Below are positions 7,363 to 14,077 of a stretch of DNA of 34,360 nucleotides, piece by piece. Below the pieces are notes generated by a model. The model made no database searches, was not told the DNA's origin, and was given only the letters and a program-made list of their open reading frames with translations. Each line of letters opens with the position of its first letter. The stretch's first letter is position 1. The stretch is from Candidatus Gastranaerophilales bacterium (GTDB lineage Bacteria > Cyanobacteriota > Vampirovibrionia > Gastranaerophilales > Gastranaerophilaceae). The translations under genes and the position numbers were made by a program. The DNA is taken from positions 1 to 34,360 of the forward strand of contig CALUTJ010000025.1 of assembly GCA_944323685.1 (NCBI GenBank), given 5' to 3'.

Positions 7363-7896
7363 TTGTTAGAACATGGTTATATACAAATTTATACAGGGGA
7401 CGGCAAAGGTAAAACAACGGCATCATTGGGGTTGGCTTTACGTGCATTAGGCCATGGCTGGAAAGTTCTTGTTATCCAGTTTACTAAAGGTGATTCAGGA
7501 ACTACTTACGGAGAAATTGCCTCTGCCGGTCAATTTTTACCAAATCTTGAAGTTCACCAGTTTGGCATGGACAGAGTTGTTTACAAACATAATGTTTGCA
7601 TCGAAGACTATAAAGAAGCTAAAAAAGGCTGGGAACTTGCTAAGCAAGCTATTCAAAGCGGTGAATACCAGCTTATTATCTTAGACGAAATTAACATTTG
7701 TGTTGCTATGAATATGATTAAAGTTTCCGATGTAAAAGAAGTTTTGATGAATAAACCGGAAAGCCTTGAAATTGTATTAACAGGCAGATATGCTCACCCC
7801 GAGCTTGTTGCTATGGCGCATCTGGTTACTGAAATGAAGCCGATTAAACACTACTTTGATATGGGTGTTATGGCAAGACAGGGTATCGAATATTAA
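7363..7896 (+). CDS. cobO: Cob(I)yrinic acid a,c-diamide adenosyltransferase (CobO/BtuR family)
   Basis: Transfers the adenosyl group of ATP to the cobalt of corrinoids, a late step in cobalamin synthesis or salvage. At 177 aa it has normal length. The P-loop GDGKGKTT (12-19) directly follows YIQIYT, and IILDEIN is the Walker B-like strand, as in CobA/BtuR. It starts with TTG; the choice is set by a strong GGAGG 8 nt upstream (7350-7354). An intrinsic terminator follows at 7942. Next come acsD and acsC, whose product binds a corrinoid, so the neighbourhood is cobamide-related. Confidence 0.93.
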   Translation: MLEHGYIQIYTGDGKGKTTASLGLALRALGHGWKVLVIQFTKGDSGTTYGEIASAGQFLPNLEVHQFGMDRVVYKHNVCIEDYKEAKKGWELAKQAIQSGEYQLIILDEINICVAMNMIKVSDVKEVLMNKPESLEIVLTGRYAHPELVAMAHLVTEMKPIKHYFDMGVMARQGIEY

Positions 7897-7941
7897 CGCA
7901 CTAATTATTAGGCGTAAATATACGGAGAAATGGGGAAATAC

Positions 7942-8016: not shown

Positions 8017-8925
8017 ATGGATAAATCATTACTTTCGTTTGATATAAAAGAAAAAATAAGAGAAACAAAACTCGGGAATTTAAAAATAGGCGGCGCCTCT
8101 GCCCGCTCTTTTATGAGGGAAAATGATAATATTGCCAGACCGCTTGTTGCAATAGAGATTCCTTATACCATTGACAACACGTATCCTGAGGTATTACAGA
8201 CAGTCTGGGGCTGCGATAAAGCTGAGCAAATGCTAGAAAAAGCCTGTAAGTCAGAGGCTGATATAATATCGATAAAATTTAACCTGACGGAAGAAAATAT
8301 TGATGGCAGCATTAGTGACATTGCAATATTCTTAAAAAACACTGTTTCAAAAATAAGCAAACCGATTATTTTAAGAGGAGCAAACAATGATGCGGTTGAT
8401 TTAAAACTTTTACCTTTTCTTGCTCAAAACGCACCAAAACAGTGTATAATTTCTTTTGCTCAGGAAAGTACTTACGAACAAATTGTTCCGGTTGTTGCAA
8501 AATACAATCATCTGCTTGTTTTAAGAAGCCCGATTGATATTAATCTGGCAAAAGAATTGAATATTTTATCAATCGACAAAGGTATAGCACCGGAAAATAT
8601 TCTTATAGATCCGGATATGGGCGGGCTTGGTTACGGGCTTGATTACGGCTACAGCATAATAGAAAAAATCAGACAGGCAGCTTTTGACGGCGACACAATG
8701 CTTAATATGCCTATCATTGCCTTCATCGGCGAAGAGTCCTACCGCGCTAAAGAAGCAAAATCAGATACATTTGACACTCAATGGGGAGATTACAAGGAAC
8801 GCGCAGCTATGTGGGAAATATCCGGAGCCTGTGCAATGATTAGCGCAGGAGCGGATATTGTTGTTTTGTGGAATCCTCAGAGTGTACAAGCAATAAAATC
8901 ACTGTTAAAAGGGGAAAATAAATGA
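8017..8925 (+). CDS. acsD: Corrinoid iron-sulfur protein small subunit (AcsD, CODH/ACS delta)
   Basis: The small, TIM-barrel subunit of the CFeSP, which with AcsC carries a methyl group on a corrinoid between methyltransferases and acceptors in the Wood-Ljungdahl pathway. At 302 aa it matches the family. The C-terminal block GGLGYGLDYGYSIIEKIR followed by MLNMPIIAFIGEESY is typical of the delta subunit. The frame is open back to an ATG at 7930, but that extension crosses the cobO terminator; the ATG at 8017 begins the conserved part. The stop overlaps the acsC start (ATGA), indicating translational coupling. No CODH, acetyl-CoA synthase or MeTr gene is in the window. Confidence 0.88.
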   Translation: MDKSLLSFDIKEKIRETKLGNLKIGGASARSFMRENDNIARPLVAIEIPYTIDNTYPEVLQTVWGCDKAEQMLEKACKSEADIISIKFNLTEENIDGSISDIAIFLKNTVSKISKPIILRGANNDAVDLKLLPFLAQNAPKQCIISFAQESTYEQIVPVVAKYNHLLVLRSPIDINLAKELNILSIDKGIAPENILIDPDMGGLGYGLDYGYSIIEKIRQAAFDGDTMLNMPIIAFIGEESYRAKEAKSDTFDTQWGDYKERAAMWEISGACAMISAGADIVVLWNPQSVQAIKSLLKGENK

Positions 8926-10136
8926 GCCTTACGGGTATGCAAATTTTTAAATATCTGCCGGGAGCTAAAAAAGCAGAAGGAACAAACTGCAAACAATGCG
9001 GCTGCCCTACCTGCATGGCTTTTGCTCTAAAACTTGCAAAACAACAGGTTGCTATTGAAAAATGCCCGCATATTCCTTCAGAACTTAAAGAAATGTTTTG
9101 CGAGGCATCAAAGATTCAACAGCACGAAATAAAACTCTCCCACACCCTTGTGACAGGCGGAGAAAATGTTATGTACCGTCATGACAAGACTTTTGTTAAC
9201 CGTACGGTAATTGCGGTTTGGCTTGATTCCGATGACAAAGATTTCGATAAAAAACTTGAGCAGATTTCAAACTACGAAATCGAACGTATAGGCGAAAAAT
9301 TCAAGGTAGACGCAATTTATCTTACGGGGAAAAATCTTGAAACAGCAACGAAGAAAGTTGAAGCAAAATCTATTGCGGCAATATCAGAGATAGCACCTTA
9401 TTCAATAGTAAAAGGGAAAGATTTTGAAACTATTGAAAAATCCTCTCAGCAAGCTCTTGCGCAAAACAAAAAGGATATTATACTGGAGCTTGAATACGGA
9501 AATAAAAGGCTGCAAGATATAGTTGAAGAACTCACGCTGATAAGACGCGCGGCAATCATAAAGCGTTATGAACCTTTTACATATCCTGTTATGGTAAAAA
9601 TACCGCGTGATATGGATACTTTACAAATTGCTGCTTCAGCATCAGTGTTGTTGTGCAGATATGCCAGTATAATTGTGCTTCCGTTTTTTAATGAGGCAAT
9701 TTTATCAACACTGTTTACACTAAGACAAAATATCTATACAAACCCGCAAAAGCCTCTTCAGGTAGAAGCAAAGGTTTATGAATTTAATGAACCTGACAAA
9801 AACGCGCCTGTACTTTTGACAACAAACTTTGCACTTACTTACTTTGCGGTTGCAGCAGAACTTGAGTCGCTTCCGTTCGGCTCTTATCTTGTTGTTACAC
9901 CTTCTGACGGAATGAGTGTTTTAACGGCGTGGTCTGCTGATAAATTTACGGCAGAGCTGGTTGCACGTTCGGTTAAAAATTTCGAGCTTGCACAAAAAGT
10001 CAATACCAGAAAAATCATTATCCCCGGACTTTTGGCACATATGAGAGATGAGCTTCAAGAAGCTATGCCGGAATGGGAAATAATTACCGGAACAATTGAA
10101 GCCTGCCAGATTCCCGAATTTTTAAAGAACGGCTAA
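8922..10136 (+). CDS. acsC: Corrinoid iron-sulfur protein large subunit (AcsC, CODH/ACS gamma)
   Basis: The large CFeSP subunit with a [4Fe-4S] cluster and a corrinoid site. The N-terminus has the cluster motif with Cys in TNCKQCGCPTCMAFA and a further Cys in EKCPHI. The C-terminal corrinoid domain keeps VTTNFALTYFAV, PSDGMSVLTAW and KIIIPGLLA as in acetogen AcsC. At 404 aa it is about 40 residues shorter than acetogen homologues; by eye the loss is in the central TIM-barrel part, before LIRRAAIIKRY. GGGG lies 8-10 nt upstream of the ATG, which overlaps the acsD stop. It ends 3 nt from convergent dapA. Because the acetyl-CoA synthase partner is not seen, methyl delivery to another acceptor (for example methionine synthesis) is a reasonable inference. 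Confidence 0.9.
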   Translation: MSLTGMQIFKYLPGAKKAEGTNCKQCGCPTCMAFALKLAKQQVAIEKCPHIPSELKEMFCEASKIQQHEIKLSHTLVTGGENVMYRHDKTFVNRTVIAVWLDSDDKDFDKKLEQISNYEIERIGEKFKVDAIYLTGKNLETATKKVEAKSIAAISEIAPYSIVKGKDFETIEKSSQQALAQNKKDIILELEYGNKRLQDIVEELTLIRRAAIIKRYEPFTYPVMVKIPRDMDTLQIAASASVLLCRYASIIVLPFFNEAILSTLFTLRQNIYTNPQKPLQVEAKVYEFNEPDKNAPVLLTTNFALTYFAVAAELESLPFGSYLVVTPSDGMSVLTAWSADKFTAELVARSVKNFELAQKVNTRKIIIPGLLAHMRDELQEAMPEWEIITGTIEACQIPEFLKNG

Positions 10137-11094: not shown

Positions 11095-11610
11095 TTATTG
11101 AACATAAGAGCAATAACCTTTTTCTATAAGGTGTTGGTTGAGGTTTACTCCGTTAACATAAAATTCTCCGACAAGGTTATTTCTTTCTCCATAGCCTTTA
11201 GCTATAAAAGAAATTTTCTTTCTGTACTGTCTAAACAGTGATTTTACATAGTCAGTTGCATTTGAATTTGTTTCCTTTGCCAACTTTGCCGGACGAAGAT
11301 AAGATACTCCGTTGAAATCACTGTTTTTGGCAGCCTGACTTAAGGTGCCTTTGAGCAGTTCGGTTTGCGAATATTCATGGCAATCCAGATTAGAAACATA
11401 TACAGTAGCAAGTGAATTATTGCCGCGGGGAAAGAAAAAACTTTCTGCTTGAGGGACTTCAAATATAATTTTGACCTGTAAGGCATTGTCCACTTTAAAT
11501 ATCCTAACAGGAATAGGTGTGCTCATCATGCTTTTACTTGCATATTTTATCGCAAAAGCAGGCATTGCTACTAACATACAGATACTTAATATAATCAAAT
11601 TCTTTTTCAT
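11095..11610 (-). CDS. Secreted SNase-like protein, paralogue 1 of 3
   Basis: 171 aa with a Sec signal peptide (MKKNLIILSICMLVAMPAFA, cleavage after AFA). The mature part resembles a thermonuclease/SNase OB-fold: PVRIFKVDNALQVKI in place of the DGDT strand, VYVSNLDCHEYS in place of the IDAPE motif, and GEFYVNGVNLNQHLIEKGYC matching the GEVYVxGxxVNxxLVxxGxA strand-helix. The active-site Arg expected before LVGE is Asn (ERNNLVGE) and DGDT is lost, so nuclease activity is doubtful. Two Cys (in DCHE and KGYC) are shared by all three paralogues and may form a disulfide. GAGGAAG precedes the ATG. Fold assignment is by pattern only. Confidence 0.7.
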   Translation of the reverse strand: MKKNLIILSICMLVAMPAFAIKYASKSMMSTPIPVRIFKVDNALQVKIIFEVPQAESFFFPRGNNSLATVYVSNLDCHEYSQTELLKGTLSQAAKNSDFNGVSYLRPAKLAKETNSNATDYVKSLFRQYRKKISFIAKGYGERNNLVGEFYVNGVNLNQHLIEKGYCSYVQ

Positions 11611-11655
11611 AAAACTTCCTCTATAATTTAATTTTAAACACGATAATTATAAAAT

Positions 11656-12156
11656 TTATTTAATGTAATCGCAATACCCTTTTTCTATAAGGTGTTGATT
11701 AAGGCTAACACCGTTAATATAAAACTCACCAACAAGATTATTCCTAATTCCGTAACCCTTCACAACAAGATAAATACTGTCAGGATATTGTTTAAACAGT
11801 TGTTTTACGTATTTTGTCGGCTCACTTTCTCTTTTTACGGAATAATTTGACGGCAGCAGATAAGAAGCACCGTTATAATCTCTCTTTTTAGCCACCTGTT
11901 TTTTTGTGCTTTTACGGAGAATAGTTTTTGAAAATTCATGACAATTTAAGTTCGAAACATAAACCGTTAACAATACCTTCCTGTACATCATCTCATCGTT
12001 ATTGAATTTCACCCTCATCTGCAAAGCATTTGAAACATCAAAGATATCAACCTTCACTGGTCTGTCAAAAACAAATGCATTATTTATTACCTTCAGGGCA
12101 AAAGCCGGTAGTGCGGTTATAAAACAAAAAGCCAAAACCAAAAAACTCTTTTTCAT
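11656..12156 (-). CDS. Secreted SNase-like protein, paralogue 2 of 3
   Basis: 166 aa, signal peptide ending PAFA. It is closest to paralogue 1: the C-terminal GVSLNQHLIEKGYCDYI and RNNLVGEFYINGV are nearly identical. The acidic motif reads LNCHEFS, with Asn replacing the Asp kept in the other two, which again suggests loss of catalytic metal binding. AAGGAG lies 6 nt before the ATG. It sits 45 nt upstream of paralogue 1 and 23 nt downstream of paralogue 3, consistent with tandem duplication inside one transcript. Confidence 0.7.
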   Translation of the reverse strand: MKKSFLVLAFCFITALPAFALKVINNAFVFDRPVKVDIFDVSNALQMRVKFNNDEMMYRKVLLTVYVSNLNCHEFSKTILRKSTKKQVAKKRDYNGASYLLPSNYSVKRESEPTKYVKQLFKQYPDSIYLVVKGYGIRNNLVGEFYINGVSLNQHLIEKGYCDYIK

Positions 12157-12179
12157 ATAAACTCCTTATAAAAACACAG

Positions 12180-12677
12180 TTATTGTATTGTTTGTTTAGG
12201 ATATTTTTTATCATTGTCGGAATCCGGCTTATTTTCAACACGTGTACAATACCCCTTTTCTATCAAATGTTCGCTAAGACTTACATCACCTATAAAAAAT
12301 TCTCCTACTAAATTGGCATATAAACCATAGCCGTTTGCTGCAAAATAAATGTCATCCGGATATTTTTCAAAGACAGATTGTACGTAATCAGTTACCTGAG
12401 TGCTCACTCTTTCAGCCAAACGGCTCGGCAAAACATAGGTAGCACCTCTTGAGCTGTTCAGGGTATAAGTTTTTGAATATTCGTGGCAATCAAGGTTCGA
12501 TACGTAGACAGGAGCACGCATTCTGTTTAATTCAACACGAACCTGCAATGCATCAAAAACTCTTTTGACTTCGACTTTTTCATGGGTTCCCCATTTGTAA
12601 GGGTTTATTTCTTTCATTGCGAACGCTGGAAGTGCAATAAAAGCCATAAAAGAAACCGCGAGCAGACATTTTTTCAT
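12180..12677 (-). CDS. Secreted SNase-like protein, paralogue 3 of 3
   Basis: 165 aa, signal peptide with a hydrophobic core starting MKKCLLAVSFMAFIALPAFA. The most divergent copy: it lacks a stretch between the two N-terminal strands, has YGLYANLVGEFFIG in place of RNNLVGEFY, and adds a charged tail after KGYC. I start it at 12677, where its ATG overlaps the miaB stop (TAATG); an in-frame ATG at 12704 would add nine residues in front of the signal peptide. GGAG is 11 nt upstream. Coupling to miaB suggests co-expression only, not shared function. Confidence 0.7.
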   Translation of the reverse strand: MKKCLLAVSFMAFIALPAFAMKEINPYKWGTHEKVEVKRVFDALQVRVELNRMRAPVYVSNLDCHEYSKTYTLNSSRGATYVLPSRLAERVSTQVTDYVQSVFEKYPDDIYFAANGYGLYANLVGEFFIGDVSLSEHLIEKGYCTRVENKPDSDNDKKYPKQTIQ

Positions 12678-14077
12678 TAATTTAATTCTCCGCGCAAATG
12701 CCATGTGCTGGCACCTGTAATTTTTACCTCAACAAACTCGCCGACAAGATTTTTATTACCTGCAAAATGCACGATTTTGTTATTTCTTGCACGGCCTGCC
12801 AGTATTATATTATTATCTTTTTCTTCGTATGATTCAACAAGAATTTCAAAAACTTTGCCGACACATTTTTGGTTTGATTTAAGGCACGCCTGTCTGTTTT
12901 TTTCGTTCAAACGTGCAAGTCTGTCTGATTTAGTATCCTCGTCTATAAATTTATCAGTCCATTTCGCCGCCTTAGTTTTTACCCTCGGAGAATAAGCTGC
13001 CGTATTTGAATAATCAAGCTCAAACTCGTCAATTGCACTGAGGGTATCTAAAAACTCTTCTTCAGTTTCTCCGGGGAAACCTGCAATAAAGTCTGAAGTT
13101 ATAGCAACATCTTCAAAAGTATTTCTGATTTTTTTTACAATTTCACCGTACTGCTGTCTGTCATAACGGCGGTTCATCTCTTTTAACACCTTTGAATTAC
13201 CTGACTGCATAGGTATATGGAAGAACTCACAGACCTTGTCACACTCTTTTACCGCTTTTATAAGGTCGTCAGAGATATCAGTCGGGTATGATGTAACAAA
13301 CCTTATACGGAATTTGCCGTCAATTTTGTTCAAATCCCTTAAAAGATTGGCAAGGGTGACATCTCTTCCGTCATAATCTTTATCAGGGTCTAATTTTTTA
13401 CCGTAGCTGTCAACATTTTGCCCGAGCAGTGTAATCTCTTTAAAGCCGTCTTCTTGAATTGCTTTTGCTGCTTCCGCGTATATTTCTGCCGGTTTTCGGC
13501 TTCTTTCCCTGCCTCTTGTAAAAGGAACAATACAATAAGTACAAAAATTATCGCAGCCTTCCATAATAGGAATCCAGGCATTCAAACTTTTGGCGCGTTT
13601 AATTTCGTATTTAGCTTCTTCTTCGCCATCAGTAAATTTTTTAGGAGTTTCATTTGTTGCGCAGACTCTCTCTCCGTTATTAATACGTTTAATAAGCTCG
13701 GGGAGTTCATAAACATTGTTGGTGCCGAACACTAAATCAACATAAGGAAATCTTTTCAGGAGTTTTTCTTTATCCTGCTGCGCCACACATCCGCAAAAAG
13801 CTATTTTTATATTTTTAAAAGGTTTGCCCTGCAATTCTTTCTGATGTTCTTCACTTTTTCTCTTGCCCCAGACTCCGACAAGACTGTATGCTTTGTCAGC
13901 TGACAACTGACGTATCGAACATGTGTTCACCATTAACAAATCAGCCTGCTTATCATCATCTGTTTGCTCATAACCGAAGTGAGAAAGCATTCCCAGTATT
14001 CTTTCGCTGTCGGACTTATTCATCTGACAGCCCATTGTTTCTATATAAACCTTTTTTGTAAAATTCTTGTTTTCCAT
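12677..14077 (-). CDS. miaB: tRNA-2-methylthio-N6-dimethylallyladenosine synthase
   Basis: A radical-SAM methylthiotransferase that adds the 2-methylthio group to (i6)A37 of tRNAs reading UNN codons. 466 aa in normal domain order: UPF0004 domain with cluster Cys in ETMGCQMN (17), NTCS (53) and CGCVAQ (97), radical-SAM motif CDNFCTYC (Cys 175, 179, 182), then a TRAM domain at the C-terminus (VEILVESYEE-like region to HLRGELN). MGCQMNKSDSE favours MiaB over RimO or MtaB. It heads a same-strand run with three SNase-like genes and dapA. Confidence 0.96.
   Translation of the reverse strand: MENKNFTKKVYIETMGCQMNKSDSERILGMLSHFGYEQTDDDKQADLLMVNTCSIRQLSADKAYSLVGVWGKRKSEEHQKELQGKPFKNIKIAFCGCVAQQDKEKLLKRFPYVDLVFGTNNVYELPELIKRINNGERVCATNETPKKFTDGEEEAKYEIKRAKSLNAWIPIMEGCDNFCTYCIVPFTRGRERSRKPAEIYAEAAKAIQEDGFKEITLLGQNVDSYGKKLDPDKDYDGRDVTLANLLRDLNKIDGKFRIRFVTSYPTDISDDLIKAVKECDKVCEFFHIPMQSGNSKVLKEMNRRYDRQQYGEIVKKIRNTFEDVAITSDFIAGFPGETEEEFLDTLSAIDEFELDYSNTAAYSPRVKTKAAKWTDKFIDEDTKSDRLARLNEKNRQACLKSNQKCVGKVFEILVESYEEKDNNIILAGRARNNKIVHFAGNKNLVGEFVEVKITGASTWHLRGELN

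Follow-up and report, generated by a model that had tools for sequence, protein, structure and literature searches.

A corrinoid iron-sulfur protein encoded without acetyl-CoA synthase in Gastranaerophilales, a probable methyl shuttle for methionine synthesis

What does a corrinoid iron-sulfur protein (CFeSP) do in a genome where no acetyl-CoA synthase (ACS) accompanies it? The question is raised by an acsD-acsC pair in a 34,360-nucleotide stretch of DNA, hereafter the window, which is contig 25 of a Candidatus Gastranaerophilales genome (2.3 Mb, 99.7% complete). The features of the window that bear on this question are the following.

7363-7896, + strand: cobO/cobA, ATP:corrinoid adenosyltransferase (PF02572, 209.7 bits)
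8017-8925, + strand: acsD, CFeSP small subunit (PF03599; phmmer to 2h9a_B, E 1.2e-45)
8922-10136, + strand: acsC, CFeSP large subunit, 404 aa, with a shortened middle barrel (PF03599 and the PF04060 Fe-S domain)
8988-9065, + strand: [4Fe-4S] cysteine motif of AcsC, C23-x2-C26-x4-C31-x16-C48 (direct reading)
9753-10133, + strand: C-terminal corrinoid-binding domain of AcsC, the part common with HgcA (HgcA models, residues 278-404)

A first, sequence-only reading of this DNA had described acsD and acsC as overlapping genes for a complete CFeSP, and this description holds. The overlap is of 4 bases, PF03599 and PF04060 are matched, the closest solved structures to AcsD and AcsC are the two CFeSP subunits of 2h9a (E 1e-71 for AcsC to 2h9a_A by phmmer), and the four Fe-S cysteines are in place. 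Moreover, AcsC scores 357 bits against NF003195 (cut-off 306), its C-terminal domain can be aligned to the end of 2h9a_A, and the Fe-S cysteine motif was found in all 34 AcsC proteins examined. Two homologous subunits, the larger one with an N-terminal Fe-S and a C-terminal corrinoid domain, are thus encoded here; judged from their sequences, both genes appear genuine and look intact, with FeS and corrinoid motifs retained. The acsD frame is open from an ATG at 7930 to its end at 8925. As AcsD relatives are mostly about 257-322 aa long, position 8017 is the most likely start.

The cobalamin adenosyltransferase gene that had been noticed beside acsD is indeed a CobA/CobO gene, at 7363-7896. As a functional partner of acsCD it was rejected: cobO flanks acsD in 3 of the 26 AcsCD loci examined, all of them in the own genus; it is thus a local feature of part of that genus and no conserved neighbour. 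A terminator between cobO and acsD is not established: a hairpin with a T run there folds at -9.5 kcal/mol (z -0.98; 34 of 200 shuffles do equally well), and a pattern scan left it unlisted. Among the clustered loci, the acsDC gene context showed no common partner. With neighbouring genes named by eye from their sequences, two basal families have flagellar genes beside acsDC, and several gut genera have ftsH. At L051, L056 and L058, in the two basal families, acsDC closes what appears by eye to be a flagellar operon (fliI, fliG, fliF, flgBC).

AcsC had also been described as shorter than the acetogen protein. Compared with 2h9a, about 45 residues are indeed gone from the middle barrel, between residues 158 and 163 of the query (154 to 205 of the 2h9a chain). 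As a peculiarity of this protein, however, the shortening does not stand. Counted from the conserved QIFK motif, AcsC has 401-414 residues in all 10 own-genus proteins examined, vs 438-464 in all 12 from basal families. Twelve proteins from other genera of the own family were also considered: the six with an exact QIFK have 371-434 residues, and the other six have total lengths of 377-439. By sequence comparison, the shortened AcsC is a trend of the lineage, and the loss falls in the middle barrel. A single-sequence model of AcsC alone reached a pLDDT of 36.4 and was set aside.

The order was surveyed with a sample of 155 genomes. AcsCD was found in 107 of them, including the own genome, and 48 are AcsCD-. 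The ACS that had been missed in the neighbourhood of acsCD is not elsewhere in the own genome either: CdhC/AcsB was matched in none of the 155 genomes, the control genomes of M. jannaschii and M. acetivorans being matched. RACo, the usual re-activator of CFeSP, was found in 2 of the 155 genomes and not in the own one. The usual methionine synthases are similarly rare. Searching the genome for metH and metE, as had been proposed, gave no match to PF02574 (MetH/BHMT-type) or PF01717 (MetE-type), and the only pterin-binding proteins of the genome are AcsE and a frame of 396 residues, taken to be FolP on its score alone. Across the sample, PF02574 was matched in three genomes, every one AcsCD-, and PF01717 in three, every one AcsCD+, so that 104 of the 107 AcsCD genomes match neither MetH nor MetE. 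As none of AcsCD, MetH and MetE was found in 45 of the 155 genomes, some members of the order seem able to do without a methionine synthase.

The statement that no AcsE gene is nearby was correct for the stretch read but not genome-wide. A pterin-binding search located acsE on contig 23 of the same genome, directly after metF. Its product is closest to methyl-THF:CFeSP methyltransferases, not to DHPS or MetH (E 6e-53 to 2yci_X vs 1.9e-22 to MetH), with an NCBIfam score of 229 bits that is below the curated cut-off of 259. In the sample, AcsE was found in 102 genomes, corresponding to 102 of the 107 AcsCD+ and none of the 48 AcsCD- genomes, and MetF in 99 of 107 vs 7 of 48.

Forty of the 102 acsE neighbourhoods were clustered for shared genes. 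In the basal families, the cluster order is a protein of ~360 residues, an ATPase of ~250 residues, FolD (by Pfam) and AcsE. A profile of the ~360-residue protein found a match in 122 of the 155 genomes, including the own one, where the gene is followed on contig 12 by an ATPase with a CXC motif and then by folD.

G000:C12:40353-41423: MesB-like candidate core methionine synthase, ~361 residues, unannotated (profile search from the acsE context)

A search for a core MetE had been advised, and it was the gene context of acsE that gave this candidate, which is invisible to the MetE model PF01717. The protein matches nothing meaningful in Pfam, PF01717 included, and a sequence search of the PDB with its profile gave nothing meaningful. 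In NCBIfam, a weak match to methionine synthase was obtained (24 bits vs a cut-off of 258). The best 80 of the 139 MesB-like matches are designated here as the named loci. Their records are mostly labelled Candidatus Gastranaerophilales or Melainabacteria, with other labels, such as uncultured bacterium, Clostridia or Fusobacterium sp., on some. Among these best 80 of 139, the ATPase gene adjoins the MesB-like gene in 77, folD is nearby in 69 and acsE in 7, contig edges being left unfiltered.

The identity of the protein was approached through its predicted structure. One of the named loci encodes a relative with 87% identity to the own protein; modelled with AlphaFold2 on a 37-row alignment, this relative gave a pLDDT of 94.8. 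In a Foldseek search of the PDB, the 18 best matches were all MetE, followed by MesD and then by uroporphyrinogen decarboxylase (UROD). VIA-align Z values were 25.2 for MesD (3rpd), 24.9 for the C-terminal half of MetE (1xdj), 20.2 for UROD and 19.6 for a M. mazei methyltransferase (4ay8). On this model, the MesB-like protein is predicted to have the fold of the MetE catalytic domain, with no N-terminal folate domain. Its zinc ligands are H-C-D-C (HCDC), and the spacing H-2-C-19-D is that of MesB, numbered 214/216/235 in the MesB study (PMC7857596). The S and D that this study assigns to homocysteine in MesB are also present. The survey in that study used a threshold of at least 130-173 bits to DET0516 by phmmer (PMC7857596). 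The protein is named MesB-like only, because the likeness was drawn via the fold and published residues and not by direct comparison with the Dehalococcoides MesB sequence. In a plasmid collection, one distant MesB-like match was found, in Desulfosarcina ovata (24%, 121 bits). It is not beside acs genes, has a zinc site of HxC, D and C in an alignment judged by eye, and has no Pfam MetE domain.

The distribution of the MesB-like gene follows that of AcsCD. The gene was found in 106 of the 107 AcsCD+ genomes vs 16 of the 48 AcsCD- genomes, counts for which Fisher co-occurrence values overstate the significance because related genomes are not independent. In the one AcsCD+ exception (G109), AcsCD and AcsE are present and the MesB-like gene is unmatched. 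Among the 106 AcsCD+ genomes, 35 MesB-like proteins were read for their zinc ligands, and all show HCDC. Each of the 80 named loci (the best 80 of 139), taken without regard to AcsCD status, shows it as well. Among AcsCD- genomes, 32 of 48 are without the gene, and 14 of the 16 copies are damaged, either at the zinc site or by a long deletion: the zinc site is lost in 11 (genera g14 and g15), and three keep HCDC but are shortened by ~70 residues (G062, G066, G083). The remaining two are near-full-length HCDC copies (G058, G080). AcsCD+ and AcsCD- members are both found within genera g2 and g7, which suggests more than one loss. Within the AcsCD+ set, AcsE and MetF are absent from five genomes of genus g6 that still have AcsCD and the MesB-like gene; either another methyl source is needed there or an early stage of decay is seen. 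In G004, G019 and G024, AcsCD is found without a MetF match.

The compact copies of G062, G066 and G083 have a pairwise dN/dS of about 0.15, which indicates purifying selection and argues that they are not simply dying. An HCDC copy survives in five AcsCD- genomes, so that the MesB-like protein may have some function where AcsCD is lacking. The segments deleted in the compact copies include EEFFxDYE and FYDETLREI, which are the most strongly conserved in the family and which the search tool had used as patterns. Because these were deleted in three related genomes that lost AcsCD, they may form the CFeSP docking surface, in contact with AcsCD. In other AcsCD- homologues, the zinc ligands are all or mostly gone and the frame is open over ~350 residues (L187, L188, G084, G086, G102, G105, G113 and likewise G124, G131, G138, G143). 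Such proteins stripped of zinc ligands may have been repurposed. L187 and L188, whose flanks were viewed, have the same upstream gene as functional copies in many gut genera, rplI by eye.

The ATPase encoded after the MesB-like gene has a deviant P-loop, and all 27 proteins examined share CXC and one more cysteine. Its best match in the structural database is CooC (3kje). Against Acetoanaerobium, it is closest to the ATPase encoded directly upstream of acsD (25%, 83.6 bits), with 44.3 bits to another one encoded further away; from gene order, these two are probably AcsF and CooC. It thus resembles the AcsF/CooC maturation ATPases in its P-loop, its CXC and its closest structure, but differs in having no ACS to mature and in being linked to the MesB-like gene. 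As ACS is absent, and RACo is absent from 153 of the 155 genomes, it may reasonably be guessed that the ATPase charges or re-reduces AcsCD, or else supplies the MesB-like protein with metal. It should, however, be noted that the ATPase gene, with its cysteines, persists in the four AcsCD- genomes examined (G058, G080, G062, G066), which counts against a role as AcsCD activator.

From genome sequences and the structural model, we consider it likely, with good confidence, that AcsCD serves as methyl shuttle in a MetH-like methionine synthase dismantled into separate proteins, in which methyl groups pass from methyl-THF via AcsE and AcsCD to the MesB-like protein. The genome sequences show that the parts are present, that their catalytic motifs are retained and that they occur together across the order. 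From this we infer the direction of the flow, the methylation of homocysteine by the MesB-like protein and the use of methyl-CFeSP as donor. MetF would produce methyl-THF, AcsE would transfer its methyl group to cob(I)amide on AcsCD, and methyl-CFeSP would then methylate homocysteine that the MesB-like protein binds as a zinc thiolate, giving methionine. MetK, encoded on the contig of the MesB-like gene, would convert methionine to SAM, and in the own genome MetY (590 bits to TIGR01326) would supply homocysteine. In many other AcsCD genera, matches to PF01053 are weak, so that the system may merely recycle homocysteine there. More speculatively, the AcsF/CooC-like ATPase could maintain the system in place of RACo, either by loading metal or by using ATP to re-reduce cob(II)amide. 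The sequence-only reading had pointed to a stand-alone CFeSP that gives methyl groups to a core methionine synthase. Such a transfer is well supported by the gene content of the genome, by co-occurrence and operon structure, and by the fold and the conserved zinc site. The stand-alone character is not: AcsE and MetF are encoded elsewhere in the genome, which makes methyl-THF the probable methyl source.

The predicted chemistry, from methyl-THF to a cobamide and then to zinc-bound homocysteine, is that of MetH, and AcsE is homologous to the MetH folate domain (partial match to NCBIfam TIGR02082). However, the proteins here are separate, the zinc domain is from the MetE superfamily and not from PF02574, and the carrier has a [4Fe-4S] domain. 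With the CFeSP and AcsE of acetogens, homology extends throughout, Fe-S motif and corrinoid domain being kept, and the own AcsE is 33% identical to the Acetoanaerobium protein; the differences are the missing ACS, the scarcity of RACo (2 of 155) and the AcsC barrel shortened in the gut family. The closest parallel is the core-MetE (MesB) of Dehalococcoides mccartyi, for which CFeSP was proposed as methyl donor (PMC7005905). According to the two studies, MesB has the core MetE fold with no folate domain and an HCDC site with matching spacing, and D. mccartyi is without MetH and MetE (PMC7005905, PMC7857596). By the same account, D. mccartyi has ACS (AcsB), takes the methyl group from acetyl-CoA and is without MetF and AcsE (PMC7005905, PMC7857596). 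Here, by contrast, ACS is absent and MetF and AcsE are present, so that the methyl group should come from methyl-THF. Moreover, the MesB-like gene sits here with those of the AcsF/CooC-like ATPase and FolD.

Other readings have to be weighed against this methyl shuttle. Methyl groups might flow in reverse, the MesB-like protein demethylating a methylated nutrient and the methyl group passing via AcsCD and AcsE to THF, to be oxidised by MetF and FolD. The presence of FolD within the MesB-like gene cluster agrees with such a route, as does that of a methyltransferase of the same superfamily (M. mazei 4ay8) among the structural matches. MtaA/MtbA-type zinc methyltransferases are relatives of the MesB-like protein. 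However, the Z value of 19.6 for 4ay8 is about 5 below that of methionine synthase, and no common dedicated substrate methyltransferase was evident in the clustered loci. Reverse flow would also leave 104 of the 107 AcsCD genomes without a known methionine synthase, though the own genome makes homocysteine (MetY). We regard it as improbable. Somewhat less probable still is that the MesB-like protein takes its methyl group from free methylcobamide or another corrinoid protein, AcsCD having a separate role. The five AcsCD- genomes with an HCDC copy would fit, and the core-MetE of D. mccartyi can use free methylcobalamin in vitro (PMC7005905), but against it stand the near-perfect co-occurrence with AcsCD and the fact that the MesB-like gene is lost or decayed in the majority of AcsCD- genomes. 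Finally, that AcsCD serves an undetected or divergent CODH/ACS is very unlikely and largely refuted: AcsC, AcsD, AcsE and the AcsF-like ATPase are all acs-cluster parts, as in Acetoanaerobium, but CdhC/ACS is found in 0 of 155 genomes with positive controls, RACo in 2 of 155, and any CODH without ACS could not turn the methyl group into acetyl-CoA.

If AcsCD does act as the methyl shuttle to the MesB-like protein, the apparent methionine synthase gap of this gut lineage (104 of 107 AcsCD genomes) is filled, these bacteria need a cobamide for methionine, and methyl-transfer parts of the Wood-Ljungdahl pathway survive and work without acetyl-CoA synthase. The order would also offer a small natural test system for AcsF-type ATPases without ACS. 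More tentatively, and with less than even confidence, it can be proposed that the whole is a self-contained, ACS-free corrinoid methionine system spanning a gut order, with AcsE, AcsCD and a new branch of core methionine synthases, and that it is kept active by an AcsF-like CXC ATPase diverted from nickel insertion and replacing RACo. The idea for D. mccartyi was already published; as far as our literature searches went, among open-licence papers, no ACS-free, folate-fed CFeSP methionine synthase across an order was found, and this version is new to that extent. In the UniProt survey, which used AcsC/AcsD as the test, MesB and MesC are reported to be confined to Wood-Ljungdahl organisms (PMC7857596). 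The present order shows that this marker can mislead.

Some further observations concern methionine genes in single genomes and the rest of the window. In G005 and G006 (the latter 99% complete), MetF is present, yet AcsCD, AcsE, the MesB-like gene, MetH and MetE are all unmatched. MetH-type genes and S-methyltransferase/MTHFR fusions are found in three AcsCD- genomes (G106, G113, G125), where they look like replacements of the patchwork system. In the window, positions 11095-12704 of the - strand encode three tandem paralogues of ~170 residues each, with apparent signal peptides, one of which has a sub-threshold SNase match (E 0.007).
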